From: Lotus japonicus
Lineage: Eukaryota > Streptophyta > Magnoliopsida > Fabales > Fabaceae
Reading direction: 5' to 3'
Assembly (NCBI RefSeq): GCF_012489685.1
Contig: NC_080046.1
Coordinates: forward strand, 35,117,176 to 35,181,175
Length of the DNA stretch: 64,000 nucleotides
A model generated the notes under the pieces. The model was not told the origin of the DNA. It saw nothing but the letters and a program-made list of their open reading frames with translations, and ran no database searches. Positions 8,422-35,705 of this stretch are shown one piece after another. A program made the position numbers and the translations under genes. The first letter of the stretch is position 1. Each line of letters begins with the position of its first letter.

Positions 8422-8433
8422 GAAATAGGCGTA

Positions 8434-13440: not shown

Positions 13441-13473
13441 TATATGAATAACAGAGGGGCTCCCGACCAACAG

Positions 13474-13486: not shown

Positions 13487-13530
13487 TAACTGCAGTCAGA
13501 GCAATCTTCTCTGTTCTCTTTCTCGAGGGT

Positions 13531-14401: not shown

Positions 14402-15104
14402 TGTGAGACCCAAGTTTTTAAGTTTGGAATAAATCGAATAAAATTCCTTTTCACGATTAATTTGATGTGACGTGAAGGAAAACCTGAACAAGTGTTTATG
14501 GAATGGAATAAATTTGTGAAGGAGAAAGTTCAGGAAAAAGCTAAGGATTGTATCAAAGTCGATAAAAGTTCTAGCACGATTAGTATTCGCTTAAACCTAG
14601 GTCAAGAACGCTAGTAAATAGCTAATCTACTCTTTAAGACACGATGGAAACTAATTACAAAAATCTTCAGAGAAATGTTAGAACTTCTCTTATTCGTCTA
14701 TAAACAAGCGTTTCGATACGATACCCTAGAACGTACTAACGTCAAATTCCAATACTCGGAAGTTTGCCGAAACCGAATCACTGATAGTCCAAGAAACCTA
14801 AAATCAACGGACGATGAAGACTTTTTCTATTCGGAGCTTCAAACGAAGATTCCACAGGCGTACGCCTATTTCTCGATATTTCTAATCTTTCTTCAGAACA
14901 AAGTTTTCTCATCTGACATCAACTGCAAAAAGTAGTTTTTCGGGTAAAATCGATTTACACCGACTTTTGATCGTTTGATTTAATTCCAAGAAACCCGTTT
15001 TGAGTTCTGGAATTCTGTCACCAGAACTTATCTTAGAATTCTCCGAGGAATACGCAGGAAAAATCGGAATTGCGAAATTTTCATTTTTCCGCATTTTCCA
15101 AAAC

Positions 15105-15115
15105 CTATAAATAGC
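15105..15115 (+). promoter_or_regulatory. TATA box of the solo LTR
   Basis: CCTATAAATAG lies about 700 bp into the LTR, the same distance as in the nested element's LTR (17,631). This makes U3 about 0.7 kb and the R-U5 part over 3 kb. Confidence 0.65.
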
Positions 15116-16626
15116 AAGAAAATGAAATTTTTTCAAAAACTTACCCATTTTGAACCCCAAACCCGCGAGCTTCAAGGAGAGAAAGGGAGGAAGTGATTTT
15201 CGCCGTTTCTTGCCCTATTGCTGCACAGTTCGTTGCTAATCGAAGACCTCGAGGTACTGATGCTATTTCTTACTTCTAATCGTCAATTCTGTCGACTTTC
15301 TCTATGTCTTTCTGTGCTCAAAGTTTTGAGGTTTTTGTAAAACTGTCCAAATAACTCGATTTCTCTGCCTAAACTTATTCCCTGCATGCCCCTGAGCGTG
15401 TTTCGCGGATTACATTTTGCCGAATGTCGCCGACATGCCGCCGGGATCCATTTCTGTTGGAAAAACCCATTTTTGGACAAAGTTTCGTTCTTTAAGCTGA
15501 AAATTCACGACTTAGCTTAGCGCTAGTAGGATTAGTCGTCATAAACGTCGTTGGTGACGTCCCCATCCAATTTATTTTTCGAAAATCCAGTTTTGAAATT
15601 CTGAGCTGAAAATAATGACCAAAATACCCCTGCGATAGTTTTTGATCCGAAAATTTTTCTGAGCTTAGATTCGTCTTAGTTACGGCTAATGATAACCTAG
15701 GAACCAAGTTTGATCGAAGAAAAATCGGGCCACCCAATTGTGAAAAGTGGCCGAGAGCTCCTCATTGGGGGGGGGGAATTTCGTTTTTCGAAAACTTGTC
15801 TTGACGCGTTAGATTGTCGTACTTCGGAGTTTATAATGTTTCGTGTAACCCTAGTACGTATTGTTTGCTGAGTTTCTGACTCATTGTGGTTGATTTCTGT
15901 GAATTTGTTCTAAGGCTCGTTTGAGGAACTTTGTGGATTCGAAGAGGAAGTTTATGAAGGAAAACTTGGAGAGCGAGCTGGAGAACCTACAAGTGAGGGC
16001 TACTCACTGAATACTAGATAATGCTTTAGGTGTCGACGAATTCGACTTGATTTATTGTTTATGCACTTGATTGTGTTTGACTGGGAAAAATGTTTTCTGA
16101 GGCTATGGCTGACAATTGATAATCTTGTATCGCTTGATTGTTGTTGATAATGATTCACATGCTAAGTGCTACCTGGTTAATCTAGGATGTTTGATATTTG
16201 CCTTATATGCTAACTGTTACATGGTTATTCTCAATGTGTTGATATATGTGTCATGACTATTGGATTGTGTTGATTGGATTATGTAATTACACATATATCC
16301 GTTGTTCGTCAGAGTGAGGATAACAGGCAGTTATGCCAGAATTTATCGTGAGATTTTGAGAAAGTTTGACAGGACGGGCCGAGGTTCGGACCCTTGTTGT
16401 TATTTTGATGGATCGAGACCTTCACTGGGAATTACTTGGGATTATGGGATCTTTTTAAACTCATAGGCTTAGAGACAAAACTAAATGGAAACTATTTTAC
16501 GAGGAAAATTCATAAGACATTAAACAACCTCTAAACCTTTAATTAATGATTACAAGCTCAAATAAGAGCTTAAGACTTGATTATTAGGTTTGGAAAATGA
16601 GAAGTGTCGCCGAGTCCAAGTTTTGA

Positions 16627-16922
16627 GGAAACTAATGAGTTTCCGAGTATGTTGATACTCTTTCGCTCGATGAGCAGATTTGTGGATTGACTATCTAAAG
16701 GATAAGTCGGGAAATTAATAAGTTTTCGGGTATGTTGATACTCTTTTGCTCGATGAGCAGATTTGTGGTTTGACTATCTAAAGGATAAGTCGGGAAATTA
16801 ATAAGTTTTCGGGTATGTTGATACTCTTTCGCTCGATGAGCAGATTTGTTATTGGGCTATCTGAAAGATAAGCCGGGAAACAGGTAGTTTCCAAGTACAT
16901 AGGTACTTTTTGCTCGCTGAGC
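16627..16922 (+). repeat. 83-bp tandem array of hairpins in the solo LTR
   Basis: Period 83 bp (16,645; 16,728; 16,811), about 3.5 units. Each unit holds GGAAACTAATGAGTTTCC-type, GAGTATGTTGATACTC-type, GCTCGATGAGC and GACTATCTAAAGGATAAGTC-type inverted repeats. In the last unit they change to GGAAACAGGTAGTTTCC, AAGTACATAGGTACTT, GCTCGCTGAGC and GGCTATCTGAAAGATAAGCC. Stem changes are compensated on the other arm. Confidence 0.85.
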
Positions 16923-17630
16923 AGTTTTTGACCATCGGATGTGTAAGACCTGAATTTTCAGAACAAGCTAGTTTCCGACTCACGCGTAGGATCAGTGTAA
17001 GCGTGACAGGAGTTTGATATTTGAGGAAGATTAATGAAGAAGAAAGTTCAGGAATTGCTTGAGGAATGTTGCGTAGTTGTTTTCGGTGTTAGTGCGAGTC
17101 GTCTGCACACTTGCCTTAGGGCGAGCGTGTCCAGAATAGGCTATTTCGCTCTTAAAGCAACGTTTTGAGTGAGATTTCGAACTCTCGGAAAATTTAAAGT
17201 TTCTCTTTATTTTTCCATCGACCAGCGTTTCATTTCGGAACTCTGGACTGTACGCACGATAGGTTTCACTTTTCGGATGTCCGCCGACGCTAATTTCTTT
17301 GCTTCGAAACCCTATTTTCGAGCAATGGATGAAGACTTTTTCTATTCGGGACTTCTAACGAAGATTCCGTCCGCGTTGCCAGACTTGTTTCGACGTTTCC
17401 AATCTTTCTTCAGTTGGAAGTTTTGTCGTTTGAGCATCACAGCAAAAAGTAGTTTTTCGGGGCAGATTAACCGACACCGCTTTTGAGTTTTTCGATATCG
17501 TTTTTCCCAAATCCTAGATTTTTGTTTTGAGTTCTGGAATTATGACGCTAGAATCTCTCTTAGAATTCCATGGTGATCGTGCTGCAAAAATCGGAATCGC
17601 GAAATTTTCATTTTCCCGCGATTTCGCCCG

Positions 17631-17642
17631 CCTATAAATAGG
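17631..17642 (+). promoter_or_regulatory. TATA box, 5' LTR
   Basis: CCTATAAATAGG, 690 bp into the LTR. It is repeated at 26,240-26,251 in the 3' LTR, where it could drive outward or LTR-gene transcription. Confidence 0.7.
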
Positions 17643-19033
17643 CGAAAAAGCTAATATCCTCTTCATTTTCACCATTTTGGCCGAGATTGTGGAGAGCTTG
17701 GGGGGAGAAGGAGAATTCGCGAAACCTTGACCAATCTTCGTGCAGTTCGTCCCTACTTATAGGTATCGAGGTAACTATCATGAATCCTGCCTCTGATTGT
17801 TGTTTCTGTTGCGTTTCTGAAGCCGTTTCTGTGCTCTAAGTTTTGAGCTTTTTCTAAAATTGTCCGATTTCTCTGATTTCTCGCTTGGGTTATGTTCCTT
17901 ATGTTCCCCTGAGTCTAAAACCTCTGTCAGTAAACTCTGATTTCGATTCAGTTGTCCAGGATCTGAAAAATTGACTCAAAACTCTTTTTGTCTCACATTT
18001 CGAAACTTTATTGTCGTAAAGCTATAATCTGACTTCGTGCCTTTAGGATTTGTTGTCACGGATGTCATGAGGATCGTTGCTGTCAAATTTGTTTTCAGAA
18101 CTGATAACTTTGAAGTTTTGAGCCTTTATTTTGGACCAAAATGCCCCTGCGTAGTCGTATTTCGGCCCGATTGTCCGAAAATTGTTCTGACAGTTTCTTT
18201 GCCTTAGTTTTACCCTAAAACTACCTTGTAAACTGATTTGATCGAAGAAAAAGAGCCGAAGCCCTTTTCTCCTTAGGGCCGTGGGTTTTCCTAAGGGGAG
18301 GGGAGTTTTTCGTTTTCGAAAACTTGTCCTTTCGTACACGTTTGTCGTATTCTGAAGCTTTGATGCTTTGTCTATCGTTTATGTATTGTTTTGCGATCGA
18401 ACTAATCGATTTTGTGTGAATTCTGCTTTGTTTTTCTCCGAGGTTCAGTTGAAGGAACTTTGGAAGTTTCAAGGCATTCCTGTGAAGGAGATTTGATTTG
18501 CGAAGCTGGATCAGCTCGAGGTTAGGGCAACTTACATATATATTAGCTATGAATGCATGATAGGCGTCGATCAATTCGACTTATGCTTTACTTTGATGTT
18601 GATTATGTTGATGAACTGATGTTGTGCTTTGTTGGATTGTGCGTTTTGACGCGACTTCGGAGTGGAGATTCATTGATCTGGTGATCTTTGATGTTTCGGG
18701 TTGGATGAACAACCCTAGGCAAGTTCAAACGAGGGGTTTGAGACTTAGCCACTTGCTGGTATTTGTTGGAATTCTTAGACTTTCCCCGGAAAACTTCTTT
18801 TGGGTGGTTGGTTTTCGGAAAACCTAGAATGAATAGAATTTTGTAAACTAAAGACTTGGGAAACCTAGATTTTGAGAAATAAACTCATAACCTGACTAAT
18901 CTGAACTGAAATCATTTTTTTATTAACGTTTAAGTATAGGAAAACTGAAGGGGAAAATATTTACGAAAGACGGGGAAAAGTCGACCTTTGTTGTGAGTTA
19001 TTGGAATTGGGGAAAGCCACCAAGGTGAGCTAT

Positions 19034-19190
19034 GGTGATGACTGAAAGTCACCGAGTACTTTACGTACTCTTGTTGATGGGGTTGTGTTGTATTGACCGA
19101 CATTAATCCCTTGGGTTCTCTTGTTGTTGGAGCGGTGTTGTATTGACCGACACTTACTCCGAGTTGTGTTGTATTGACCGACACTAACTC
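19034..19190 (+). repeat. Hairpin cluster 1 in 5' LTR (TGTATTGACCG loops)
   Basis: Three stem-loops share the loop TGTATTGACCG (19,080-19,110, 19,129-19,160 and 19,161-19,190), flanked by different but self-complementary outer arms (GGG/CCC, GGAG/CTCC, GAGTT/AACTC). Just upstream are GGTGATGACTGAAAGTCACC and GAGTACTTTACGTACTC. Confidence 0.75.
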
Positions 19191-19276
19191 ATGGGTTTGT
19201 TGAGATTGGGTTGTGAGCTAAACACTTTCGTGGTAAGGACGATTCGTTGTTTGGCTAACCACGTTGCATTCAATCG

Positions 19277-19513
19277 GGTGAATAACGGGAATGGTTCACC
19301 TGTGCATATCATGGTGAATAACGGGAATGGTTCACCTTGCATTAATGATGAATAACGGGAATGGTTCATCATTCGGTGAATAACGGGAATGGTTCACCAA
19401 GGATGAATAACGGGAATGGTTCATCCAGGATGGATTTCATCCAGGATGGATAACGGGAATGGTCCATCCATAGTGAAAATGCTTCACTTGTGGCGAACGG
19501 GAACGCGTCACAA
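19277..19513 (+). repeat. Hairpin cluster 2 in 5' LTR (TAACGGGAATGG loops)
   Basis: Six stem-loops share the loop TAACGGGAATGG: 19,277-19,300, 19,313-19,336, 19,344-19,373, 19,375-19,398, 19,401-19,426 and 19,444-19,469. Arms vary in step: GGTGAA/TTCACC, GATGAA/TTCATC, GGATGAA/TTCATCC and GGATGGA/TCCATCC. Two looser relatives follow to 19,513. An identical array occurs in the 3' LTR at 27,886-28,122. Confidence 0.9.
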
Positions 19514-19750
19514 ATCCGGATTCATATTGTGCATTTCACGCATACATTCATGCTGACTGAGACTGTGTGCTGTTTGTTTATTGAAGTAATGTTAGAGCCA
19601 TAACATGCTAGGATTATTTATATGCTTATATAACAACTTATATATATACCCTGTCACATGTTGTGTGTATATGTACTTATTGCTGTGAGTTGACCCTAGC
19701 GCCTTGGCTTTGTCTGTATGTTTGTCTTTGGGCGGTCGGCCTGCTGCCAG

Positions 19751-20419
19751 ATGTCGATGGCCGACTGGTTCTCGACGGTCTCTCCCTCGGGGGGGATCAG
19801 ATATGAGTTGCTGGATAGGGATGCCCCCACCGCTTGGGTGATCGATGTGGCTGGTCACCGGGCGACGTATAGGGGAAGGGTCATGGAGGACCGGACGGAT
19901 GAGCGAGGACGCCTGACGAGCGGAGTGCTACGGCGTATGGAGCTGAGTTTTGACTTGCCGCCCTCAGTTCATTGTGGACCAGGCACTGGACATGCACCAC
20001 CTGCACCACCTCCGACTTCACCTTCTGTTGAGGAGGACCCAGAGGAGATCGAGCCTGCTGCTGCTGCTATATCTGTTGTGCCACCTCCGGCTACTGCCAT
20101 CGCTTCTACCGACGTGGCGTCGTCCTCTAGGCTCGTACAGTCGAGGAGGGAGTCTGTTGTCCCATCTGCCTCACGTCTCTTATCTTTCTCTTCACCGCAC
20201 GGCTACCGTGTGGACCCCTTGATGAGGGTGGAGGAGGAGGATGTTCTCACAGGAGAGGTGGATGTGGAGACCGGCTCGACTAGGGCGGTGCGCAGGACAG
20301 TGAGGAGGGAGGTTATGGACTTGGACACCGAGATGATTACGGTGGATTCCGACTCTGACTCCGAGAGCAGTGGGGAGAGCTACTCGCCGAGCAGCGATGA
20401 GGAGGAGGATGATTGGTGA
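19751..20419 (+). CDS. LTR-encoded protein (5' LTR copy), unknown function
   Basis: The ORF could start at 19,718, but ATG 19,751 (MSMADWF...) is preferred: the start codon follows a CTGCTGCCAG 3'-splice-site-like sequence, and homology to the ORF at 30,214 begins precisely there. The product is 222 residues. The N-terminal ~80 residues hold shared blocks (MSMADWF, PSGG, ELLD, AGHRA, VHCGPG). A proline/alanine/serine-rich middle follows, then an acidic tail with EMITVDSDSDSESSGE that resembles a SUMO-interacting motif. It is upstream of Gag in any genomic transcript and is repeated in the 3' LTR. No known domain was recognised. That it is expressed is inference. Confidence 0.65.
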   Translation: MSMADWFSTVSPSGGIRYELLDRDAPTAWVIDVAGHRATYRGRVMEDRTDERGRLTSGVLRRMELSFDLPPSVHCGPGTGHAPPAPPPTSPSVEEDPEEIEPAAAAISVVPPPATAIASTDVASSSRLVQSRRESVVPSASRLLSFSSPHGYRVDPLMRVEEEDVLTGEVDVETGSTRAVRRTVRREVMDLDTEMITVDSDSDSESSGESYSPSSDEEEDDW

Positions 20420-20891
20420 GCTGAGCTGGGAGGGTAGGTTAGGATTAGCGACATTTTTTGTGTAGAGCTCTGATCGTCAGTTTCTTGTTGGGACAGGGTA
20501 GGTTCCGATGTGTGGCTTTTTGTGTGGTTCTTTTGAGGAGGATCACAGAGAGTCTGTCGGAGTATAGGGGTCTTCCTTTCAGGCCATTTTTGAGTGCCGA
20601 CTTTCTCTTGGATAACTGTATTTTGATACTTTTACTCACAGTTCTGGTTTGTATATTTGCCTGCGGGCGTACTACTTTGGAGTCACTGCGGCTTCGCGTG
20701 ACATGGAGTGCAGCCGAGGCTGTACAGATGTATATATATTTGTATATCGGTTAGTTCAGTTGTTGGGTGTTGTCTCTACTTCTTTATCGCTTTGATTTAA
20801 AGGAAAGAAACGAAAAAAAATTTACCTGTTTTCCGCGTAAAGTTTATTTTTGGTTACTAAAGTGACACCTGGAAGTCGGGGTGTTACATTG

Positions 20892-20903
20892 TGGTATCAG
20901 AGC
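20892..20903 (+). other. Primer-binding site (tRNA-Met) of the chromovirus
   Basis: TGGTATCAGAGC, three bases after the 5' LTR end, is complementary to the initiator tRNA-Met 3' end. Confidence 0.9.
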
Positions 20904-21095
20904 TTAGTCGAGTCTTTTGGGAGTCTTTGGGGAATAGGTCTTCTGTGCTAGGTTGTGTGACTCTGCAAAGAGTGAAAATTGATTGTCTGCAGGACGATTT
21001 TTCGTTCTAATTGATTGCATGGTTGTTTAACCATATGTAATAGTTTGGTGCTATTCTACGATTAGGACTAACAGTTTTCTTGGGGCTAACAGACG

Positions 21096-23258
21096 ATGGT
21101 GAACACAAACCAGCTAGCAGAGATGATGGCCACTATGGCCCAGGCAATGACTAACCAAGCGAATGACAATGCTTTGAGACGTGCTGCGGAGGAAGCGCGT
21201 GATCAACACCAGCGTCAGAGGGAGGCGACTCTGGATCAGAACAGAGGGTTGAATGACTTCAGGAGACAGGATCCGCCTAAGTTTTCGGGAGGTACTGACC
21301 CGGACAAAGCGGAACTCTGGATAGAGGAGATTGAGAAGATCTTTGGAGTGTTACAGACTGCTGAGGGAGCCAAGGTGGGGCTGGCAACCTATCTGTTGTT
21401 GGGAGATGCTGAATACTGGTGGAGAGGCGCCAGAGGAATGATGGAGGCAAATCATGTGGAGGTGAACTGGAATTCTTTTCGAACAGCTTTTCTCGAGAAG
21501 TATTTCCCAGACAGTGCTCGTGACGAGCGTGAATCACAGTTTCTGACTCTGAAACAAGGAAGCATGACCATTCCGGAGTATGCTGCCAAGTTAGAGTCTC
21601 TGGCAAAGTACTTTCGGTTTTTCCGTGATCAAGTTGATGAACCCTACATGTGCAAGAGATTTGTGAGGGGATTGAGGCCTGATATTGAAGATTCGGTGAG
21701 ACCATTGGGGATCATGAGATTCCAGGCATTGGTTGAGAAGGCAACTGAGGTGGAATTGATGAAGAATCGGAGATACAACAGGGCTGGAACAGGAGGACCG
21801 GCGAGGTCGACACCACAGAGTTTTCAGGGAAAAGGGAGGTTTCAGGCGAGGAAGCCATATCAACGACCTGCGGGGAGAGGGTTTACCCCGGGATCTTACA
21901 AGCCGATGGCTGCTGCTACTTCTGGAGGGTCGGGAAGCCGTACCCCAAATCGTGAAGTGACTTGTTTCCGGTGTGGAGGAACGGGACACTATGCAAACAA
22001 TTGCACGAGGCCACCAAGATGCTACAATTGCAACAAATCTGGGCATCTGGCTACGGAATGCAAGGCACCGAAGGTTGAACCGGCTGTGAATGCTGTTAGT
22101 GGGAAGCGCCCAGTGGCTAAGGGAAGAGTGTATACAATGGATGGAGAAGAAGCTGAAGGAGCTGATGGGTTGATCAGAGGGGAATGTGAAATTGACGGTA
22201 ATCTTCTAACTGTACTCTTTGATTCTGGTGCAACTCATTCATTTGTCTCTAAGGATTGCGTATCAAGACTGCATCTGCCTATTACTACTTTGAGTTTTGA
22301 TCTTATGGTAACTACACCTGCTAGGACTCTAATTGCTAATGCCGCATGCATGCACTGTTCAGTAGTATATAAAGATAGAACTTTTCATGCCAACCTAGTA
22401 TGTCTACCCCTTAAAAACCTAGATGTAATCCTCGGGATGGATTGGTTATCCCACTACCATTGTCTTTTGGACTGTAGTCGAAAGAAAGTGGTGTTCCCAG
22501 ACTCGGATCTTTTCGAGTATCTTTCTATTAACCACATTAGTGCATCGTTGAGCGAGGGCACTCAGAAGTACTTTTCATTGCTAAGTCTGGAAGGGAAGAA
22601 GGAATCGGATATTCAAGGTATTCCGGTGGTTCGAGATTTTGCGGATGTTTTTCCTGGAGATGTACCTGGACTGCCGCCTGTACGCGATGTGGAGTTTGTG
22701 ATCGACATTGTACCCGGAACTGGACCGATTTCGATCGCACCTTACCGTATGGCACCTGCGGAGTTAGCGGAGTTGAAATCTCAGTTGGAGGATCTTTCGG
22801 CAAAAGGATTCATTCGACCAAGTGTTTCACCGTGGGGAGCGCCAGTGTTGTTAGTTAAGAAGAAAGACGGAAGGTCGAGATTATGTGTGGATTATCGACA
22901 ACTGAACAAGGCGACGATCAAGAACAGATACCCGTTGCCGAGGATAGATGATTTGATGGATCAATTACGAGGGGCTGCTGTATTTTCGAAGATAGATTTG
23001 AAATCAGGCTATCATCAGATCAGAGTGAAGACTGAGGATATACCGAAGACTGCATTCAGAACACGCTACGGACACTACGAGTACTTAGTGATGCCGTTTG
23101 GAGTGACAAATGCACCTGCTGTTTTCATGGATTACATGAACCGCATCTTTCATGAATTCTTAGATCGGTTTGTGGTGGTGTTTATTGATGATATACTGAT
23201 ATACTCGAAGGATGCAACGGAACATGAAGGACATTTGCGCAAGTTCTACAAGTGTTGA
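21096..23258 (+). CDS. Gag-Pol of the chromovirus, first part (Gag, PR, RT)
   Basis: From ATG 21,096, 720 codons. Retrotrans_gag domain at about codons 60-230 ([34 protein letters not shown]). Two CCHC knuckles follow ([14 protein letters not shown] and [14 protein letters not shown], about codons 290-325). Protease has [12 protein letters not shown] (about 375). RT has [32 protein letters not shown] and FIDDILIYS (about 560-705). Gag forms the particle; PR and RT process it and copy the RNA. The frame is lost near 23,243 by a one-base change and ends at a TGA at 23,256. The rest of Pol is in another frame. Tekay-type elements normally encode this as one continuous polyprotein. Confidence 0.9.
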
Positions 23259-25513
23259 GAGAGAAGAAGCTGTATGCGAACCCTTCTAAGTGTGAATTTT
23301 GGCTGGAGAAAGTCAATTTCTTAGGCCACGTTATCTCAAAGGAAGGCATAGCTGTGGATCCGGCGAAAGTAGAGACTGTTTTGGCTTGGGAGCAACCGAA
23401 GACAGTGACAGAAATCAGAAGTTTTGTGGGTTTGGCTGGATACTATAGACGCTTCATTGAGGGATTTGCCAAGATCGTTGGACCTTTGACTCAACTAACG
23501 AGGAAGGATCAACCTTTTGCATGGACTGAGGCGTGTGAATCAAGTTTTCAGACTCTGAAGGAACGTTTGACGACGTCACCTGTGCTTATTTTGCCGCAAC
23601 CAGAAGAACCTTATGAAGTTTATTGTGATGCTTCGTATCAAGGCTTGGGATGTGTGCTGATGCAACATCGAAAAGTGGTGGCGTATGCTTCGAGACAGTT
23701 GAAGACGCATGAGAGGAACTATCCGACTCATGATTTGGAGTTAGCTGCCATTGTGTTTGCGCTGAAGATCTGGAGACATTACCTCTATGGTTGTACTTTC
23801 ACGATATTTAGCGATCACAAGAGCCTTAAATACTTGTTTGATCAGAAGGAGCTGAACATGAGGCAACGAAGATGGATGGAGTTCATCAAAGACTATGAGT
23901 TTACGTTGCAATATCACCCTGGGAAGGCGAATGTAGTTGCTGATGCTTTGAGCAGAAAGATGCATGTCTCGTCAATGATGGTTAAAGAGCTGGAGTTACT
24001 GGAACAATTTCGAGATATGAGTCTAGGTGTGACACCGTCTGAGGGAAAGTTGAAGTTCGGTATGATCAGAATTGCCAGTGGACTGATGGAAGAGATTAGA
24101 GAGCAACAACTACAAGATGAGTTTCTGCTGGAGAAGAGGAACTTAGTGATTCAAGGGAAAGACCCGGAATTCAAGATCGGAACTGACGATATCTTAAGAT
24201 GCAAGGACAGAGTGTGTGTACCCAATAATCCAGAATTGAGAAGGCTGATCATGGATGAAGGGCACAAGAGCAGATGGAGTATTCATCCGGGAATGACCAA
24301 GATGTATCAAGATTTGAAGCTGAATTTCTGGTGGCCAGGAATGAAGAAACAAGTGGCCGAGTATGTAGCTGCATGTTTGACTTGTCAGAAGGCCAAGGTA
24401 GAGCATCAAAGACCTGCTGGTATGCTACAGAGTTTAGACGTGCCAGAATGGAAATGGGATAGTATATCCATGGATTTTGTGGTGGCTTTGCCAAGAACAC
24501 AGAAGAGACACGATTCGATTTGGGTGATTGTAGATCGTTTGACCAAGTCAGCGCATTTTCTACCAGTGAGAACTACCTACAATGTGGAGAAGTTGGCCGA
24601 GATCTATGTGGCGGAGATTGTGAGACTACATGGAGTTCCGACAAGTATTGTGTCTGATCGGGATCCAAAGTTTACTTCGCACTTTTGGGGAGCTCTTCAT
24701 GATGCGTTAGGAACCAAGCTGAGGTTGAGTTCGGCGTATCATCCACAAACGGATGGGCAAACAGAGAGAACTATTCAGTCGCTAGAGGATCTACTACGGG
24801 CTTGTGTGCTAGATAACAGAGGAAGCTGGGATGATCTTCTGCCATTGGTTGAATTCACCTACAACAATAGTTTCCATGCGAGCATTGGGATGGCACCGTA
24901 TGAAGCTTTGTATGGTCGGAAGTGTAGGACACCTTTGTGTTGGTATCAAGATGGGGAGAGTTTGTTGATTGGGCCAGAAATGCTGCAACAGACGACTGAG
25001 AAGGTTAAGCAGATCAGAGAACAGATGAGGGCTTCACAGAGCAGACAGAAGAGCTATGCTGATCAGAGACGTAGAACCCTAGAGTTTGAGGAAGGTGACC
25101 ATGTGTTTCTACGAGTTACCCAGACTACGGGGGTTGGACGAGCTATTAAGTCAAGGAAACTTGCGCCAAAGTTTATTGGGCCTTATCAAATCACTCGACG
25201 TGTTGGACCAGTTGCGTATCAGATTGCACTACCGCCATTTCTTTCCAACATTCATGATGTATTTCATGTGTCGCAGTTGAGGAAGTACATTCCAGACCCG
25301 ACTCATGTGATCGTGCCAGACAACGTTGAACTGAAGGATGATTTGACCTTTGAGGCACCGCCAGTGAGTATTGGGGATAGGAGAGTGAAACAGCTGAGGG
25401 GAAAGCAGATTCCGTTGGTAAAGGTGATATGGAACAAGGATACGGGGGATGCTACATGGGAATTGGAAGATAAGATTAAGGAATTGTACCCCGGACTTTT
25501 TGCTGAACTCTGA
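23252..25513 (+). CDS. Pol of the chromovirus, second part (RNase H, integrase, chromodomain)
   Basis: 753 codons, continuing Pol after the frame break, so its ATG is not a natural start. It holds the RT thumb ([18 protein letters not shown]), RNase H with [10 protein letters not shown] and VVADALSRK, and an integrase zinc domain ([12 protein letters not shown]... CLTCQKAK). The integrase catalytic core has D in SMDFV, D in [10 protein letters not shown] and E in [12 protein letters not shown]-terminal end with [16 protein letters not shown] resembles the chromodomain of the Tekay/Del clade, thought to steer integration toward heterochromatin. Insertion into another LTR fits that habit. All expected domains are visible. 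Confidence 0.9.
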
Positions 25514-25538
25514 GTTTCGAGGACGAAACTTTCTTTTT

Positions 25539-25547
25539 GGAGGGGAG
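25539..25547 (+). other. Polypurine tract of the chromovirus
   Basis: GGAGGGGAG, three bases before the 3' LTR, is the plus-strand primer site. Confidence 0.8.
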
Positions 25548-27642
25548 TATTGTAAGACCTGAATTTTCAGAACAAGCTAGTTTCCGACTCACGCGTAGGA
25601 TCAGTGTAAGCGTGACAGGAGTTTGATATTTGAGGAAGATTAATGAAGAAGAAAGTTCAGGAATTGCTTGAGGAATGTTGCGTAGTTGTTTTCGGTGTTA
25701 GTGCGAGTCGTCTGCACACTTGCCTTAGGGCGAGCGTGTCCAGAATAGGCTATTTCGCTCTTAAAGCAACGTTTTGAGTGAGATTTCGAACTCTCGGAAA
25801 ATTTAAAGTTTCTCTTTATTTTTCCATCGACCAGCGTTTCATTTCGGAACTCTGGACTGTACGCACGATAGGTTTCACTTTTCGGATGTCCGCCGACGCT
25901 AATTTCTTTGCTTCGAAACCCTATTTTCGAGCAATGGATGAAGACTTTTTCTATTCGGGACTTCTAACGAAGATTCCGTCCGCGTTGCCAGACTTGTTTC
26001 GACGTTTCCAATCTTTCTTCAGTTGGAAGTTTTGTCGTTTGAGCATCACAGCAAAAAGTAGTTTTTCGGGGCAGATTAACCGACACCGCTTTTGAGTTTT
26101 TCGATATCGTTTTTCCCAAATCCTAGATTTTTGTTTTGAGTTCTGGAATTATGACGCTAGAATCTCTCTTAGAATTCCATGGTGATCGTGCTGCAAAAAT
26201 CGGAATCGCGAAATTTTCATTTTCCCGCGATTTCGCCCGCCTATAAATAGGCGAAAAAGCTAATATCCTCTTCATTTTCACCATTTTGGCCGAGATTGTG
26301 GAGAGCTTGGGGGGAGAAGGAGAATTCGCGAAACCTTGACCAATCTTCGTGCAGTTCGTCCCTACTTATAGGTATCGAGGTAACTATCATGAATCCTGCC
26401 TCTGATTGTTGTTTCTGTTGCGTTTCTGAAGCCGTTTCTGTGCTCTAAGTTTTGAGCTTTTTCTAAAATTGTCCGATTTCTCTGATTTCTCGCTTGGGTT
26501 ATGTTCCTTATGTTCCCCTGAGTCTAAAACCTCTGTCAGTAAACTCTGATTTCGATTCAGTTGTCCAGGATCTGAAAAATTGACTCAAAACTCTTTTTGT
26601 CTCACATTTCGAAACTTTATTGTCGTAAAGCTATAATCTGACTTCGTGCCTTTAGGATTTGTTGTCACGGATGTCATGAGGATCGTTGCTGTCAAATTTG
26701 TTTTCAGAACTGATAACTTTGAAGTTTTGAGCCTTTATTTTGGACCAAAATGCCCCTGCGTAGTCGTATTTCGGCCCGATTGTCCGAAAATTGTTCTGAC
26801 AGTTTCTTTGCCTTAGTTTTACCCTAAAACTACCTTGTAAACTGATTTGATCGAAGAAAAAGAGCCGAAGCCCTTTTCTCCTTAGGGCCGTGGGTTTTCC
26901 TAAGGGGAGGGGAGTTTTTCGTTTTCGAAAACTTGTCCTTTCGTACACGTTTGTCGTATTCTGAAGCTTTGATGCTTTGTCTATCGTTTATGTATTGTTT
27001 TGCGATCGAACTAATCGATTTTGTGTGAATTCTGCTTTGTTTTTCTCCGAGGTTCAGTTGAAGGAACTTTGGAAGTTTCAAGGCATTCCTGTGAAGGAGA
27101 TTTGATTTGCGAAGCTGGATCAGCTCGAGGTTAGGGCAACTTACATATATATTAGCTATGAATGCATGATAGGCGTCGATCAATTCGACTTATGCTTTAC
27201 TTTGATGTTGATTATGTTGATGAACTGATGTTGTGCTTTGTTGGATTGTGCGTTTTGACGCGACTTCGGAGTGGAGATTCATTGATCTGGTGATCTTTGA
27301 TGTTTCGGGTTGGATGAACAACCCTAGGCAAGTTCAAACGAGGGGTTTGAGACTTAGCCACTTGCTGGTATTTGTTGGAATTCTTAGACTTTCCCCGGAA
27401 AACTTCTTTTGGGTGGTTGGTTTTCGGAAAACCTAGAATGAATAGAATTTTGTAAACTAAAGACTTGGGAAACCTAGATTTTGAGAAATAAACTCATAAC
27501 CTGACTAATCTGAACTGAAATCATTTTTTTATTAACGTTTAAGTATAGGAAAACTGAAGGGGAAAATATTTACGAAAGACGGGGAAAAGTCGACCTTTGT
27601 TGTGAGTTATTGGAATTGGGGAAAGCCACCAAGGTGAGCTAT

Positions 27643-28122
27643 GGTGATGACTGAAAGTCACCGAGTACTTTACGTACTCTTGTTGATGGGGTTGTGTTGT
27701 ATTGACCGACATTAATCCCTTGGGTTCTCTTGTTGTTGGAGCGGTGTTGTATTGACCGACACTTACTCCGAGTTGTGTTGTATTGACCGACACTAACTCA
27801 TGGGTTTGTTGAGATTGGGTTGTGAGCTAAACACTTTCGTGGTAAGGACGATTCGTTGTTTGGCTAACCACGTTGCATTCAATCGGGTGAATAACGGGAA
27901 TGGTTCACCTGTGCATATCATGGTGAATAACGGGAATGGTTCACCTTGCATTAATGATGAATAACGGGAATGGTTCATCATTCGGTGAATAACGGGAATG
28001 GTTCACCAAGGATGAATAACGGGAATGGTTCATCCAGGATGGATTTCATCCAGGATGGATAACGGGAATGGTCCATCCATAGTGAAAATGCTTCACTTGT
28101 GGCGAACGGGAACGCGTCACAA
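27643..28122 (+). repeat. Hairpin arrays in the 3' LTR
   Basis: The exact counterparts, 8,609 bp downstream, of the two hairpin clusters at 19,034-19,190 and 19,277-19,513. Confidence 0.85.
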
Positions 28123-28359
28123 ATCCGGATTCATATTGTGCATTTCACGCATACATTCATGCTGACTGAGACTGTGTGCTGTTTGTTTATTGAAGTAATG
28201 TTAGAGCCATAACATGCTAGGATTATTTATATGCTTATATAACAACTTATATATATACCCTGTCACATGTTGTGTGTATATGTACTTATTGCTGTGAGTT
28301 GACCCTAGCGCCTTGGCTTTGTCTGTATGTTTGTCTTTGGGCGGTCGGCCTGCTGCCAG

Positions 28360-29028
28360 ATGTCGATGGCCGACTGGTTCTCGACGGTCTCTCCCTCGGG
28401 GGGGATCAGATATGAGTTGCTGGATAGGGATGCCCCCACCGCTTGGGTGATCGATGTGGCTGGTCACCGGGCGACGTATAGGGGAAGGGTCATGGAGGAC
28501 CGGACGGATGAGCGAGGACGCCTGACGAGCGGAGTGCTACGGCGTATGGAGCTGAGTTTTGACTTGCCGCCCTCAGTTCATTGTGGACCAGGCACTGGAC
28601 ATGCACCACCTGCACCACCTCCGACTTCACCTTCTGTTGAGGAGGACCCAGAGGAGATCGAGCCTGCTGCTGCTGCTATATCTGTTGTGCCACCTCCGGC
28701 TACTGCCATCGCTTCTACCGACGTGGCGTCGTCCTCTAGGCTCGTACAGTCGAGGAGGGAGTCTGTTGTCCCATCTGCCTCACGTCTCTTATCTTTCTCT
28801 TCACCGCACGGCTACCGTGTGGACCCCTTGATGAGGGTGGAGGAGGAGGATGTTCTCACAGGAGAGGTGGATGTGGAGACCGGCTCGACTAGGGCGGTGC
28901 GCAGGACAGTGAGGAGGGAGGTTATGGACTTGGACACCGAGATGATTACGGTGGATTCCGACTCTGACTCCGAGAGCAGTGGGGAGAGCTACTCGCCGAG
29001 CAGCGATGAGGAGGAGGATGATTGGTGA
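28360..29028 (+). CDS. LTR-encoded protein (3' LTR copy)
   Basis: Identical in translation to the ORF at 19,751-20,419, again directly preceded by CTGCTGCCAG. A transcript starting at the 3' LTR TATA box (26,240) would carry this ORF without Gag-Pol, so the copy could act as a separate gene. No function is assigned. Confidence 0.6.
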   Translation: MSMADWFSTVSPSGGIRYELLDRDAPTAWVIDVAGHRATYRGRVMEDRTDERGRLTSGVLRRMELSFDLPPSVHCGPGTGHAPPAPPPTSPSVEEDPEEIEPAAAAISVVPPPATAIASTDVASSSRLVQSRRESVVPSASRLLSFSSPHGYRVDPLMRVEEEDVLTGEVDVETGSTRAVRRTVRREVMDLDTEMITVDSDSDSESSGESYSPSSDEEEDDW

Positions 29029-29497
29029 GCTGAGCTGGGAGGGTAGGTTAGGATTAGCGACATTTTTTGTGTAGAGCTCTGATCGTCAGTTTCTTGTTGG
29101 GACAGGGTAGGTTCCGATGTGTGGCTTTTTGTGTGGTTCTTTTGAGGAGGATCACAGAGAGTCTGTCGGAGTATAGGGGTCTTCCTTTCAGGCCATTTTT
29201 GAGTGCCGACTTTCTCTTGGATAACTGTATTTTGATACTTTTACTCACAGTTCTGGTTTGTATATTTGCCTGCGGGCGTACTACTTTGGAGTCACTGCGG
29301 CTTCGCGTGACATGGAGTGCAGCCGAGGCTGTACAGATGTATATATATTTGTATATCGGTTAGTTCAGTTGTTGGGTGTTGTCTCTACTTCTTTATCGCT
29401 TTGATTTAAAGGAAAGAAACGAAAAAAAATTTACCTGTTTTCCGCGTAAAGTTTATTTTTGGTTACTAAAGTGACACCTGGAAGTCGGGGTGTTACA

Positions 29498-31139
29498 GGA
29501 TGGAGATGAATCGGATGATTCGAGAAATCATCATGAGATACTTTTTATAATTAATTGTCTTTAATTTTGTCGCTGAATCGACATTTACCTTAGGGTATTC
29601 TTTTTAGAGACAATAAGTTAGCTAGAACACGTGACGACGTGACGAGTGAGGTCGGAGACGTTGTTTGGCTAATCACTTTGCATTCATGCACTCATTTTGA
29701 GGTTAATACACGGTGGGATGCCGGACCTCGGTGGATTCCAAAATGGTCATAAGACCCGGATTTCCACATAAGAACACTGCGGCGATTCTTAGTAGTAGAC
29801 GGAAATGGCAGGCCTGCGGGTTTACTGCTGATCTGACTACATTTTGTTTGGTATAAGAGACGCCCGAGCAGAAATGGTCCCACCGTGGCTGGTGTTAGGG
29901 CTGACTCGTTGGTGCCCATCCCTCTGGATTGCATCTTGTTCCTTTGCATTTGCATTTCATGCACCATTCATGCTGATTTAGTTGCTGATTGTATTTGTTA
30001 CCTGTTAACGCTGTTTGAGATATGTTAATTGCCAGCAAATGTTATTTATTCTTATTTGGCAGGATATGCAAATTATAATGTTGTCATTCATAACTAAGCC
30101 TATGTGGCTACTACTTAAACTTTGCCTATTGGATGTACTATTATGTAATTCTTTGAGTTGACCCTTGCGCGTGCTACCTGTGTATGGGGGGCTATGTATG
30201 CCTTTTTTGTCAGATGTCGATGGCCGACTGGTTCGAGATGGTCGTCCCTTCGGGGGGGACCAGGTTTGAGTTGCTGGATACAGACACCCCGGGCTCTTGG
30301 GTGGTCGACCCCGCCGGTCACCGAGCTATTTACACGGGGCGAATAATGGAGGACCACGTTGACCGAATGGGAAACCTGACGCAAGGAGTCTTGAGACGCC
30401 ACACCGTTAGCTTCAACCTACCACCGGGCGTGCACTGTGGCCCTGGAGTTGTAGTACCACCGCCATCGTCGCCTGAGGACGAGGAGGACCCTTCGGAGGA
30501 GTTGCCTGTAGGAGGGACTTCATCTGAGTCTAGCTCACCCACCGTCGCGGCTGCTATTGTTTCGGGATCGGGTGTAGTACCCGTGGTACCCGCTGTGAGG
30601 ACCGTCACAGTCATTGACCTGATCGTCTTGGATTCAGATTCAGACGATGACCATGGTGATGCGTAGCTGGGAGTTGTGTGTAGTACTCCTCTAGTCGGGA
30701 TTAGGGTAGGAGTAGCGTCGTGGCTCTGATCTTCAGTTTTTCTCATTTTGGGGCAGGGTAGGTCCCCAACCTTTAGCTTTTTGTGTGGTTCTCTTTACGG
30801 GAGTCACAGGGAGTTGGTCGGATTAGGAGGTCTTCGGGCTGTTTTGAGCTGACCTACTTTCTTTTTGGAGGACTGTATTCAGAATACTGACCTTATATTT
30901 TGTTTCTGTACATATTGCCGGCAGGCACTACTTACCCGTCACTGGAGGTTACTCGTGACGTGGCATGCTGTTTACTGTGGGGACTGTAAATATATTTGTT
31001 TATCTTCCGTCGATACGTCTTTGAATTCGACAAGTCTTTTATTTACTTGAAACAAATATCGAAAAAAAATATTCACGTTTTTCCGCCTTTATTTTCTTTT
31101 TGGTTACTAAAGTGACGCCACCGAGATCGGGGTGTTACA
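29498..31139 (+). mobile_element. Solo LTR of a long-LTR chromovirus, right part
   Basis: The solo LTR resumes after the second GGATG copy and ends GATCGGGGTGTTACA, followed by GGGAG. It includes a stem-loop at 29,514-29,532 and the ORF at 30,214-30,666. The stretch before the end (TTTTTGGTTACTAAAGTGAC) is nearly the same as in the nested LTR. Confidence 0.85.
30214..30666 (+). CDS. LTR-encoded protein homologue in the solo LTR
   Basis: The start ATG 30,214 is preceded by CCTTTTTTGTCAG, a good 3'-splice-site-like sequence. The product is 150 residues. It aligns with the nested element's protein over the first ~80 residues (MSMADWF, PSGGTRFELLD, AGHRAIYTGRIMEDH, GVLRR, LPPGVHCGPG). It ends with VTVIDLIVLDSDSDDDHGDA, a hydrophobic run followed by acidic/Ser residues, as in SUMO-interacting motifs. 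The middle is shorter and differs. The frame is open although the LTR is diverged and solo, which hints at selection on the protein while the family was active. Confidence 0.65.
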   Translation: MSMADWFEMVVPSGGTRFELLDTDTPGSWVVDPAGHRAIYTGRIMEDHVDRMGNLTQGVLRRHTVSFNLPPGVHCGPGVVVPPPSSPEDEEDPSEELPVGGTSSESSSPTVAAAIVSGSGVVPVVPAVRTVTVIDLIVLDSDSDDDHGDA

Positions 31140-31306
31140 GGGAGAGTCTATTTGGTCGTCACTCATATGTGTGGGGGTTTCCTTCTTACTCACCTTCATC
31201 CTATTATTATAACATATACCCTCGAGAAAGAGAACAGAGAAGATTGCTCTGACTGCAGTTAGGCTCTGATACCACTGTTGGCCGGGAGCCCCTCTGTTAT
31301 TCATAT
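31140..31306 (-). repeat. Inverted third copy of EPV 5' region, part 2
   Basis: This continues the inverted EPV arm from 14,401. It includes the inverted tRNA-Met primer site (31,262-31,274) and ends at the counterpart of 13,443. The inverted arm is about 570 bp in total. Confidence 0.85.
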
Positions 31307-31499
31307 TTCATTAATTTTTCACATATATCATTGAACCGCTTTCTCTCCCTCTCCCTCTCAATAGTTTCCACACTCTCTATTTCGCTTGACTAATACAAAT
31401 GCCCAGCCCTTCATTATTCTCATTTGAAGCACATGGACGAGGATAAAGCCTAATATTTCCTATACTCCATCACGAAGAATGACATTTATAGCAGTCATC
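31307..31499. other. EPV right flank, no gene seen
   Basis: CT-rich, then mixed sequence between the end of EPV similarity and the next LTR-like fragment. Nothing was recognised. Confidence 0.35.
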
Positions 31500-33390
31500 A
31501 CCACCACTTCAATTTTTATGGATATGAAGTGTGAGAATGCGTTCGTGTCGGAGCTAAAAATAAATGGAAGGAAAGCGAGCTGGTACGACTACGAGGAGCG
31601 ATGACGTGATCGGATTGGAGTCCCAACTTAGGAGGGAAAATGGCTAAGGTGAGGGCACTTCGCTTCAGCTATTTATATTTTTGAATCTATGCTATATGAT
31701 TGTTGTGAGAGCACTTTGATGCTTGCTATTTGATATAATGGCTTGTTGTGATAATGTTTGTAATTTCATTGTGATATTTGATTACCTATTGCCTATCGCT
31801 TGTGTAACCGGAGGGTTTTCGAGCGTCGGTTAGAGGAGACTCTAACTATGCTTTAGATCTACTGTGGTTTTCGATCAAGAGGTTTTTCTCAAAAAGTGTT
31901 ACATAGGGTGGGAACTTTTATTTTTACCTACCAAAGTTTTTGAAAAAGAACAAATGTATTAATGATTTACTAATAAAATTTATCTAATGGAAAATATTAA
32001 AGTGTACACATATTTTGTAAATTAAAAGAGGGTTTATTTGCAACACAAAACTCTTAAAGAATGAGAAATATATTTTTAGAGGGGACTTCAATCAATCCTT
32101 TTTAGAAAAGAAAATTTTAAAGGTGGACTTTTATTTGATGAGTTTTGAGGAAAGAAATACGAGACTCGACGACACGGTTACTTGGAGTGGAGTGACCCGT
32201 CGTAGGGTAAACTTCGGTCACTTGGAGCGGAGTGCAACCGTTGGTGATGGACCCCGATTGGTATCCTAGTTTAACTATTTTCTTAGCAGTAAACACGAAC
32301 ACTCGAGAGGGCGTTCTTGTTTGTTTGGCTAACCGTGATTCATATCATGCATGCATACATTTTGTCAGGATGGTGGAGTGGCCATGCCTGTCTTCTGAGG
32401 ACGATGAAGTGGTCGTACCTTCAGATGTTGATAATGGAGAGGTTATCAACGATGTTGATACTGGAGTGGGTATCAACTATGTTGATACTTGAGTGGGTAT
32501 CAACTAAGTGGCATTCACTAGTCAGAGGTCGATACTGGAGTGGGTATCGTACCGACAAAGTGTTGTCCCGCCTACCTCATATGGAAATGGCGTTTATATC
32601 CGGATCATTTGATGTGCTTGTGTGGCATTGCATTTGCACGAGCATATAGACTTACCTTAGGGTTTTTAGATTGAGCTTGGTGATGATGTGATATATGCTG
32701 TTAGTTTTGATATGCTTGAGATAAGATAAATGTGATTTAATTGTTATGTGTGTTGGAGAGGTTTGTCATTGACAACCCTCGTATTTTACGTAAGCCACGT
32801 GATCGATAGATCTGCGTAAGTAAGCGTGAAACGTATAAGTATGTGATTTATGTGCTACTGGGTGACCTACTATTATATATATACATATATTCTTGAAGTT
32901 GACCCTCGCACGCCATTGTATGTATTGCTTGTGTTTGGGCGGCCGGTAACTGCCAGGTGATGGACGACGACGTGATCAAGTACCATGCTTTGGAGGGGCC
33001 ATTGTAATGCTGCCAATGACGAGGATCCATGATAATGAGATTATGAGCCATGCTTATACATTAGTTTGGTGAAGTGCGCCGTAAGTTGTTCATGGGATTG
33101 ACTACGTGTCTGTGATGCTAGAACCCTGTCGCAGATCTTATCAAAGATAGAATGTTCGACCATCGAGGAGACTTGCTTAGAGGAGAAGTAGACTCTTGTC
33201 TAGGGCTTGAGCCCTTTGGGTAGAAAGCTTACCGTCGTTGGTTATAGCTTGTAGGATGATCATATGAGTTTGTATTCTCTTGGGTTCGGAGGAAGGGTAG
33301 GTCCCGAGGGATGTTGTTTGGTGGTCTATCCAGCGTAGAGATCATAGGGAGCTTGTCGGGCATAAGTCTTTTGATATTTCTTTTTGACAG
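31500..33390 (+). mobile_element. Third chromovirus LTR fragment (R-U5 part)
   Basis: It shares the order of landmarks with the two LTRs above: AAGGTGAGGGCACTTCGCTT (compare 15,990 and 18,520), a hairpin array, GTTGACCCTCGCACG, GGGCGGCCGG...CTGCCAG directly before an ATG, then GGGTAGGTCCCGAGGGATG and AGATCATAGGGAGCTTGTCGG. U3, TATA box and 3' end are missing. The ORF after the CAG (ATG 32,960) stops after 15 codons, so the LTR protein is lost here. It is a third, more diverged family. Confidence 0.6.
32176..32553 (+). repeat. Hairpin array in third LTR fragment (TGGAGTGG loops)
   Basis: Stem-loops share the loop TGGAGTGG or a close variant: 32,176-32,197 (GGTTACT/AGTGACC), 32,215-32,240, 32,427-32,450 (GTTGATAA/TTATCAAC), 32,454-32,477 (GTTGATAC/GTATCAAC), 32,481-32,504 and 32,528-32,553 (CGATAC/GTATCG). 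Arms differ in a compensated way; loops are kept. Confidence 0.85.
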
Positions 33391-34756
33391 GACAACAACA
33401 GCATAACTTCTCCTAATCTAATATCGAACCCATGCTCATCCAGAGGTAATCAATACATAAACAACAGAACTAACTAGCGATTAACCATCTCCAATGCCCT
33501 TACATTTTCAAAAACATTTTCAGCCCCTACAAGAATTAAAACATACCCAAAACAGAAAAATATATCCTTTTCTACCTTAAGCCTCATGGCTAAGGTTCTG
33601 TATTGCTTCTTCATCCTCTCTAACAACAGCTTCTGCCTTCCTCTGAGGACCATCAAGCTCTGAGCAACAGTGGTGTATAACACAGAATGGGAATTAGAAG
33701 TTGATAGAGGGAAAAGGAATTAGGGTTTTGAAAAGGGAAAAGCTGAAATTGGAAGGGAGGATTAATCTCTTACCCAAAATTGATAATCAATTCAGCAAGA
33801 GGAGGAGGAGAGCTTCCTGGTTCTGAGTTCAGTGACATCTCCGGCGAAGGTTGGCCGGAGAAGACGGTGGTTCACGGTGGCTGGCGGCGGTTTCCAGCGC
33901 ACGTCGAAGGGAGTTCCATGGTGTGGTTGGTTTCTCCAAAAACTCAGTGGTTCGCCGGAGATCGGAGTTGAAAGGTGGCGGTTTTAGGGTTTTCTTTTTC
34001 CTTATTTTTCACGTCTGTGGTGGATGTAGCTTGTGGTGGTTGCAGCCATGGAGGAGAGGGACTCATGGTGGTACTGGTGCTGGTCGTGGTTGAGGAACCA
34101 GAGGAGAAAAACGCGTGGTGGTGGCGTTTTGGCTCGCGGTGGTGGCGGTGGTTGGCTACGGGCTCGCGTGAGGATGGCGCAGTGATGGCTGGCGTGAGAG
34201 GGAGAAGGGAAACATGGTGATGGTGATAACTCTTGTTGCTGTATCAGAAGAGCAAGAAAATGGGTTTGGAGAGGAAGAGAGAAAGAGTCGAGAGGTTGAG
34301 GGAGAGCGTGAGTGAGGGAACGCATGAGGGAGAGTGGGAGAAGAGAGTGAGAGAAAAGGGGAATCTGATTGGTGAAGTGGGACCCGCATGAGAGAGAAAG
34401 TGATCAGAAAATATGAATGAAAGGATAAGTGATTGAGGGAAAAGAATAAATTAAGAATATTCTTTGGTGATAGGCTAACATAGGTAATTATAAAAAGGTG
34501 ACCTGTTAGAGCAGGTCATCTCTATAAAAGAAAGAGATAATTAAATAGTATAAATTTCTAAGATTAAAATGATATAACACACAAAAATAATTCTAATTTT
34601 ATTCTTGTATTTAAATAAACCTCTATAAGATTGAAATATTGAAATTAATTATTACTTGATTAATTTTCTCCAATCACAATTAATTAATAAATAGTACGTG
34701 TTGTCGGGATTTAGGAGATTAAATAAATAAATGTTTTATTAAATTTCGGGTCTTAC
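33391..34756 (-). mobile_element. Antisense LTR-like fragment of a further chromovirus family (tentative)
   Basis: The right end, AAATTTCGGGTCTTAC, is on the minus strand GTAAGACCCGAAATTT, like the first bases of the chromovirus LTRs. From there the minus strand goes through AT-rich, then CT-rich sequence (34,150-34,400) and then a GC-richer stretch. No LTR ORF or hairpin array was seen. Open frames of up to about 107 codons at 33,780-34,330 are low-complexity and are not called genes. Confidence 0.35.
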
Positions 34757-35339: not shown

Positions 35340-35705
35340 AGACTTTTCACATCAGGGTTTTCACATCGGTTAATCAATAACCTGATGTAAAAGATGACGC
35401 GGTGACAATATTGAAATTATAGTGAACTTTTATGATAGTTTTCACATCGGTTGGGAATATGTCTGATGTGAAAAGTAGTTAGGAAATACTTTTTACAACG
35501 GTTTTTATAATAAGCGATGTGAAAGCTAAATGCGGTGGCATTTTTGAAATTTTAATGAAGTACTTTTTACATCGGTTGAAGTATAAGCGATGTAAAAAGT
35601 CCATATTTTCTTTAGTTTTAACATCGGTTATGTTATAACCGATGTGAAAAGTCTCAGTTTTTTAGTTTTCACATCGGTTTTGTTATAACCGTTGTGAAAG
35701 ATCAT
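35340..35705 (+). repeat. CACTA left subterminal repeats
   Basis: TTTCACATCGGTT and inverse or variant copies occur about eight times. In En/Spm elements such repeats bind TnpA. Confidence 0.8.

Follow-up and report, generated by a model that had tools for sequence, protein, structure and literature searches.

Tandem hairpin arrays in the long terminal repeats of Lotus japonicus Ty3/gypsy elements as candidate RNA structures of unspliced transcripts

We studied tandem arrays of short hairpins in the long terminal repeats (LTRs) of nested retrotransposons in a window of 64,000 nucleotides of Lotus japonicus (contig NC_080046.1, positions 35,117,176–35,181,175 of the forward strand, in a genome of 553.7 Mb); coordinates below are those of the window unless stated, and its features lie on the plus strand. 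In this window a recent Ty3/gypsy element with identical 3947-bp LTRs is inserted in an older solo LTR, and a third, truncated LTR is present at ~31300–33390. The original prediction had taken 16627–16922 as the solo LTR, which is only its array; the LTR itself runs from its start TGTGAGACCC at 14402 to 16941 and again from 29503 to its TGTTACA end at 31139, being split by the nested element, and is bordered by the target-site duplication GGGAG (14397–14401 and 31140–31144). The nested element has its 5′ LTR at 16942–20888 and its 3′ LTR at 25551–29497 (100% identity; target-site duplication GGATG), so that the latter holds a second copy of both arrays described below. Pfam matches over pieces of this element comprised gag, a CCHC zinc knuckle, protease, reverse transcriptase (RT), RNase H and integrase, and the order protease-RT-RNase H-integrase is that of Ty3/gypsy elements. 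Its primer binding site TGGTATCAGAGC, read from the sequence at 20892–20903, is presumably of the initiator Met tRNA type, and the element itself we take to be a Tekay/Del-like chromovirus. As for a C-terminal chromodomain, Pfam searched up to E 10 matched SH3_Tf2-1 and no Chromo, and a PDB search returned nothing relevant.

All three LTRs of the window carry tandem hairpins, as predicted, the third clearly so only once wobble pairs and bulges are allowed. The solo-LTR array (16627–16908; repeat and fold analysis) consists of 83-bp units of four different hairpins with loops of 3–5 nt, and does not have the single fixed loop that had been ascribed to it. The hairpins predicted in the nested LTR are there, in two arrays and not one: three hairpins with loop TGTATTGACCG at 19079–19190 (loops at 19089, 19139 and 19170), and the main array at 19277–19488, where the hairpin listing gave six hairpins with loop TAACGGGAATGG and a short one. 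The third array (32176–32552) has eight hairpins, two before and six after a landmark that is common to the LTR families (GTTTGGCTAACC at 19249–19260, with variants at 29663 and 32323; read by eye). Its loops are TGGAGTGG-like, but the loop is not as strictly fixed as had been claimed, as TGAAGTGG, TTGAGTGG, TGGAGAGG and TGGAGCGG also occur. The four arm exchanges quoted in the original prediction were all found in the sequence. When perfect-stem hairpins (stem of at least 6, loop of 3–14) were counted against 100 shuffles, the solo array (16600–16941) had 4 (shuffle mean 0.91, maximum 3) and the nested array (19030–19530) had 8 (mean 1.27, maximum 4), and the third (32100–32620) was not above chance with 3 (mean 1.25, maximum 4). 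The local fold of the third array had the lowest sense-strand z among the 12 arrays introduced below (−6.3), and the sense-strand whole-array folds of all three window arrays were better than 100/100 shuffles. The antisense fold of the nested array was likewise better than all 100.

To this window we joined 280 kb flanking both sides, giving 344 kb, and a tandem hairpin array was present in 12/12 distinct LTRs that reach the region (the solo and nested LTRs, A to I, and T). As the original prediction had it, the architecture is kept and the sequence differs between families, with at least eight unit types. By loop these are TAACGGGAATGG, TGTATTGACCG, TGGAGTGG and CAAGCAGA, and also GTGCTGTTGGAGCAGC; other types are a CGTGAGA loop on an inner stem GAGG/CCTT, GAAG/CTTC or GGGG/CCCC, a 5′ bulge TTGRGA beneath a GAAA, GCAA or TTCG loop, and the 83-bp four-hairpin unit of the solo LTR. 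The count of 12 leaves out a piece near contig 78300–79202 (L013), which shows two D/E-type hairpins, a piece at 190896 (L018), where the LTR match ends before the array, and pieces at 181351, 296029 and 320572. The arrays had been said to stand at the same relative place, and all indeed lie between the promoter and the open reading frame (ORF) of the LTR, but they fall on either side of the landmark GTTTGGCTAA (19249, 29663 and 32323): the array is upstream of it or a variant in the solo LTR, A, B, C and G, and the main array is downstream in the nested LTR, H, D, E and T (the reading of F and I stopped short of the landmark). The original observation holds, although its limits were in part misstated, and it applies more widely than had been described. 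In a scan of both strands of the 344 kb, with LTR twins counted and a duplex energy of −7 or lower taken as well-paired, well-paired class loops fell inside sense LTR arrays in 12/12 (class N1), 12/12 (N2), 8/9 (T), 18/19 (H) and 22/22 (BG) cases. The TTGRGAC motif with well-paired arms was also seen at four places outside arrays, at contig positions 29630(−), 50709(−), 153627(+) and 206632(−) of the joined sequence. A known Rfam family was rejected as an identity for the arrays, since a search of 14000–33500 (E up to 1) gave one match, below its cut-off and outside them.

The position of the arrays suggests that they are transcribed as part of a long leader. The nested LTR has a TATA box (TATAAATA) at 17633–17640, and TATAAATA or TATATATA is found in nine other LTRs; it is upstream of the array in 10/10 LTRs where it is readable, and the array follows ~1.4–1.8 kb downstream. 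Both nested arrays lie within a putative intron at 17771–19750, with the GT...AG pattern GAG/GTAACT ... GCTGCCAG/ATG. Both sites are readable in ten of the 12 LTRs, T being truncated and D having no match to the promoter stretch at nested LTR positions 627–1142. In these ten, GAG/GTA (AAG/GTA in one) stands 138–151 bases past the TATA box, CAG follows 1980–2783 bases after the putative 5′ site and directly before the LTR ORF or its relic, and the array is at 56–90% of the interval. T content is 32–35% within the interval and 20–33% in its flanks. The interval looks like an intron, though its sites may be alike by descent, and if it is an intron, the array would be kept only in unspliced RNA. 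With an assumed start at 17663, there are 64 ATGs before gag in the unspliced leader and 21 in the spliced leader.

Within the arrays, the two arms of a hairpin are matched to each other. Swapping 3′ arms among hairpins of the same loop class worsened duplex energy in 5/5 classes, and the observed energy was reached in 45 (N1), 58 (N2), 8 (T), 17 (H) and 0 (BG) of 20,000 permutations; by counts of standard pairs the corresponding numbers were 348, 56, 2, 76 and 14. There were 6, 6, 7, 8 and 12 distinct hairpins in these classes, and the hairpin's own arm was the best partner in 4, 2, 6, 5 and 5 of them. For these tests and the G-U/A-C counts below, eight off-array matches to loop motifs were dropped by hand, identical hairpins were counted once, and the LTR twins A3, B3, C2, H2 and the nested 3′ LTR were omitted.

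The pairs also bear on whether sense-strand RNA or a DNA palindrome is under selection. Selection on sense RNA is expected to tolerate G-U and not A-C, and states common to at least two copies had 11 G-U versus 4 A-C, compared with 5 versus 11 among singletons (Fisher p 0.032), which we regard as mostly later decay. Array states gave 9 versus 2 (p 0.065 alone) and, pooled with shared states, 20 versus 6 (p 0.009). As sense-strand folds supplied the pairs, these counts are biased toward G-U, a bias to which the shared-versus-single contrast is less open. Only pairs with a Watson-Crick state in two or more rows were counted. In the third D/E hairpin, G-C, G-U and A-U states are all present at two neighbouring pairs. 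Moreover, bulges are predicted at fixed places, on the 5′ side in 12/12 distinct BG hairpins and on the 3′ side in 5/6 N2 hairpins. Among four-base loops of the arrays, 5/22 are GNRA or UNCG on the sense strand and 0/22 on the antisense strand (elsewhere in the LTRs, 11 and 20 of 271), although D and E are related, so that these are about four independent cases. From these comparisons we infer that sense-strand RNA is favoured over DNA palindromes, and the cruciform DNA that had been proposed alongside RNA is disfavoured by the G-U/A-C asymmetry, the fixed bulges and, weakly, the tetraloops. A DNA-level element, in which palindromic protein sites or cruciforms act as an enhancer or insulator in the LTR, would fit the fact that the inverted repeats are also DNA palindromes and the enhancing effect that LTR tandem repeats have in other plant elements. 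However, the arrays lie ~1.4–1.8 kb downstream of the TATA box, several loops are 8–12 nt long, G-U tolerance makes no sense in DNA, and the stem letters that a DNA-binding protein would read are the variable part; we consider such an element very unlikely. Alternatively, the arrays might have a purely mutational origin, with tandem duplication and template switching in hairpins (quasi-palindrome correction) keeping arms complementary without function. Copy number and unit do vary between arrays, covariation between copies is weak, and pairs are freely broken by singleton changes. Nevertheless, this process predicts no strand bias, yet shared states favour G-U; it would erase bulges, yet bulges are kept at fixed places, which does not fit palindrome repair; and it leaves unexplained why the same interval of 12 LTRs holds an array of different units. 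A mutational origin alone is therefore, in our judgement, unlikely.

Several results weigh against selection on sense-strand RNA. The arm-swap tests leave common descent of the tandem units in place. Comparison of a larger set of copies, on which the original prediction would have expected significant covariation, went half way: the D/E family alignment (A1; 12 rows from 2 loci and 10 of 40 scored genome places, 84–94% identical to the query where measured) beat shuffles on 0/5 measures (percentage paired 193/500, covariation score 171/500) and had a small covariation term (−1.7 of −46.1), whereas the solo-LTR family (A2; 11 rows from the window and 10 of 40 scored genome places, 85–91% identity) did so on three of five measures (0, 5 and 17 of 500), the other two being 443 and 500 of 500. 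One A2 pair had changed on both sides, GAC/GTC versus GGC/GCC, in 5/11 rows. However, relatedness of the copies can yield the A2 excess, and some pairs are broken often, such as 114/119 of A2 in 7/11 copies. Of eight single units tested in rotation, five did not fold better than their mononucleotide shuffles by a 5% criterion (shuffles as good, per 200: N1 45, H 105, BG 117, Old 30, AC 15) and three did (N2 6, T 0, E 9), and we rejected single-unit fold energy as proof of structure. Gapless-stem counts were not above shuffles in arrays B5 (145/200), G (134), D (200) and E (67), all four of which have bulged stems, and were only weakly above them in I (19/200). As for strand, arm duplex energies were nearly equal between strands in 3/5 classes, and array fold z was as strong antisense (mean −3.9) as sense (−3.3), so fold energy was rejected as proof of strand. 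Thirteen array states are neither G-U nor A-C. The GNRA loop is not strictly kept, the third D/E hairpin reading GAAC in 7/21 copies (nine further D/E copies were added for one hairpin, A3, only) and the first reading GGAG in 5/12 and AAAA in one. Two patterns outside the five classes above were uninformative or lacked array specificity: the AC pattern had paired arms as coded in 0/26 matches, and the E-type bulge had them in 6/85, only 2 of which were in LTR arrays. In addition, array borders in the gapless-stem, array-fold z, single-unit, intron-position and G-content tests were set by eye after the hairpins had been seen, and these results thus lean in favour. Selection on structure, as originally proposed, gains support from the arm-swap in five classes and from arrays in 12/12 LTRs and is not matched by covariation between copies: arms are pair-matched within arrays, and the between-copy evidence is thin. 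Taken together, the comparisons make RNA-level selection on the arrays likely, and the numbers behind it are modest.

Four elements with degraded coding capacity indicate how the arrays may act. The LTR pairs of A, B, C and H are 99.65, 99.57, 99.78 and 100% identical, and these elements have therefore moved recently. At E ≤ 1e-6, nothing in their interiors matched the nested element's RT, RNase H or integrase core. A gag match of ~300 residues survives in both B and C, relics of gag and protease are present in A, and H is left with a short gag relic only; all four retain a piece of the pol end. They were probably moved by proteins made elsewhere. The LTR ORF itself, 222 aa in the nested LTR (19751–20419; MSMADWF..., starting right after the putative 3′ splice site) and 150 aa by ORF reading in the solo LTR (30214–30666), matched no Pfam family. 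A search with it matched six proteins, of which four were named Lotus japonicus (P0001–P0003 and P0005); the nested LTR ORF is 92% identical to an NCBI-predicted Lotus protein, and the best match is named ‘isoform X1’. Of the 12 LTRs examined, two have a long ORF after the putative 3′ splice site, and in A, B, C and H the LTR ORF is shortened or gone, with the array kept in all four. Since recent elements without a pol core and with broken LTR ORFs keep the array, the array appears to act in cis, which leaves its particular role unspecified. The suggestion that the LTR protein of the same element is the sole reader of the array is weakened by the same four elements, and we disfavour it. Recent elements with near-identical LTRs and no RT or integrase core match inside (L007–L013 and L027–L028) are non-autonomous, and two of them keep gag.

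We propose that the arrays would be sense-strand RNA structures in the long leader transcribed from the LTR promoter, and that, being presumably intronic, they would be lost from RNA on splicing. Their constant unpaired segments, of which several are G-rich, would be repeated 2–10 times on stems that need only to pair, forming a multivalent platform on which the zinc knuckles of Gag, or a host RNA-binding protein, could dock. In the manner of retroviral Psi, docking would single out unspliced genomic RNA for packaging and reverse transcription, and the unit would be renewed by tandem duplication and replacement, by which families come to differ. Zinc knuckles favour unpaired guanosines, and the seven constant unpaired segments, picked by hand, had 42% G of 55 bases versus 29% in the arrays (p 0.038); loops H, N2 and BG, which lack GGA/GAG, argue against this part of the proposal. 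Binding of Gag to mark unspliced RNA is the most likely single role, as a tentative choice, in that the constant part is unpaired, the copies are many, the location fits marking of unspliced RNA, and the constant segments are G-rich. As a whole, the proposal of a multivalent Gag-read signal of unspliced RNA is held tentatively, and a packaging role of the arrays is possible, with some doubt; retention of the array in recent elements without pol bears on it only indirectly.

Other roles in RNA would make use of the same position. The array could control splicing, folding part of an intron of 2.0–2.8 kb so as to set the unspliced share or bring the splice sites together without any protein reader; the GT...AG pattern in 10/10 readable LTRs with the array inside at 56–90%, the drop in leader ATGs on splicing and the ‘isoform X1’ name of the best LTR-ORF match would all fit. 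However, control of splicing leaves unexplained why loops are constant and stems variable within a family, H and E keep array and sites though the LTR ORF is gone, and splicing is itself read from sites that may be alike by descent, so that we see this role as somewhat unlikely. The ATGs ahead of gag and a structured leader downstream of the promoter would also agree with an effect on translation, either shunting past upstream ATGs or restraint of gag translation to spare RNA for packaging. Yet the arrays are short tandem hairpins and not the one long stem of the known plant pararetrovirus shunts, and the array is kept in element H, where gag is reduced to a short relic; a role in translation is distinctly improbable. 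Dimerisation of RNA by kissing loops, which had also been suggested, would be expected in leader hairpins, the usual place for such sites. Among seven loops, none had a self-complementary run of at least 6 bases, to itself or to a family partner, as a dimer initiation site would have; the longest complementary runs were 2–5 bases with G-U allowed. Dimerisation was rejected on this ground and is extremely unlikely.

A Gag-read signal of unspliced RNA has partial parallels in known systems. In HIV-1, stem-loops SL1 and SL3 of Psi act in packaging and Gag protects SL1 internal loops (PMC8786341); several stem-loops (SL1–SL3) lie in the leader around the major 5′ splice site (PMC8786341), which resembles the Lotus arrangement. 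The Lotus arrays differ in consisting of 2–10 tandem copies of units that differ between related families, and in lying inside the LTR, ~1.4 kb or more from the start. Ty3, which is in the same superfamily as the Lotus element, needs the zinc finger of its nucleocapsid protein for packaging of genomic RNA and has cis sequences near the RNA ends (PMC4974528); tandem hairpin arrays are not described for Ty1/Ty3 encapsidation in the parts of that article available to us. BARE1 of barley, a Copia element, separates spliced mRNA from packaged RNA (PMC3735527), and is thus a plant LTR element with spliced and unspliced RNA pools, but its intron is 104 nt in the gag part, compared with a 2 kb interval in the Lotus LTR, it belongs to another superfamily, and the term ‘stem’ is absent from the text (PMC3735527). 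The degenerate AxxA packaging signals of satellite tobacco necrosis virus (STNV) are likewise stem-loops with a common loop motif, and are not tandem units of an LTR; there, the in vitro binding of loop motifs did not find confirmation in vivo (PMC6475782), which is a warning for the Gag-binding reading. Large plant Ty3/gypsy elements with long LTRs often hold tandem-repeat arrays in non-coding regions, as here, whereas an RNA fold is not described and ‘hairpin’ is absent in the accessible text (PMC6317226). In the open-access literature, including the available parts of PMC7264820 and PMC6911290 and with most subscription journals outside the scope, no description of such hairpin arrays was found.

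Little is known, in our judgement, of the way in which LTR retrotransposons of plants pick out their own RNA for packaging. If the proposal is true, the arrays would provide a testable packaging element in a model legume, would help to explain the mobility of elements without pol, and would be a case of non-coding RNA structure outlasting the replacement of nearly all of its sequence. Should the arrays serve splicing instead, it is still unusual for a leader interval of the LTR to hold a hairpin array in every sampled LTR family. A wider speculation, which we consider doubtful, is that plant chromoviruses carry a replaceable RNA barcode, an intronic tandem hairpin array of the LTR leader by which Gag would choose among unspliced RNAs, with a unit invented anew from one family to the next. 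Its turnover may be driven by competition with non-autonomous elements that parasitise the same Gag, and by small-RNA silencing, which is sequence-based; on this barcode reading, a structure with free stem letters would be a good defence against such silencing.

Other features of the window were noted. Inverted 167-bp copies at 13442–13608 and 31306–31140, 98.8% alike, flank the LTR nest. The stretch 7192–12206 has pararetrovirus-like reading frames with RT and RNase H domains; a movement-protein match there was weak and below cut-off (E 0.0066). The stretch seems to be an endogenous caulimovirid-like relic. Tandem palindromic units ACATCGGTT...AACCGATGT occur at 35564–35699 and 39378–39731, and we take them to resemble the ends of legume CACTA elements. 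Finally, a 62-bp unit is perfectly duplicated in tandem at 43085–43208.

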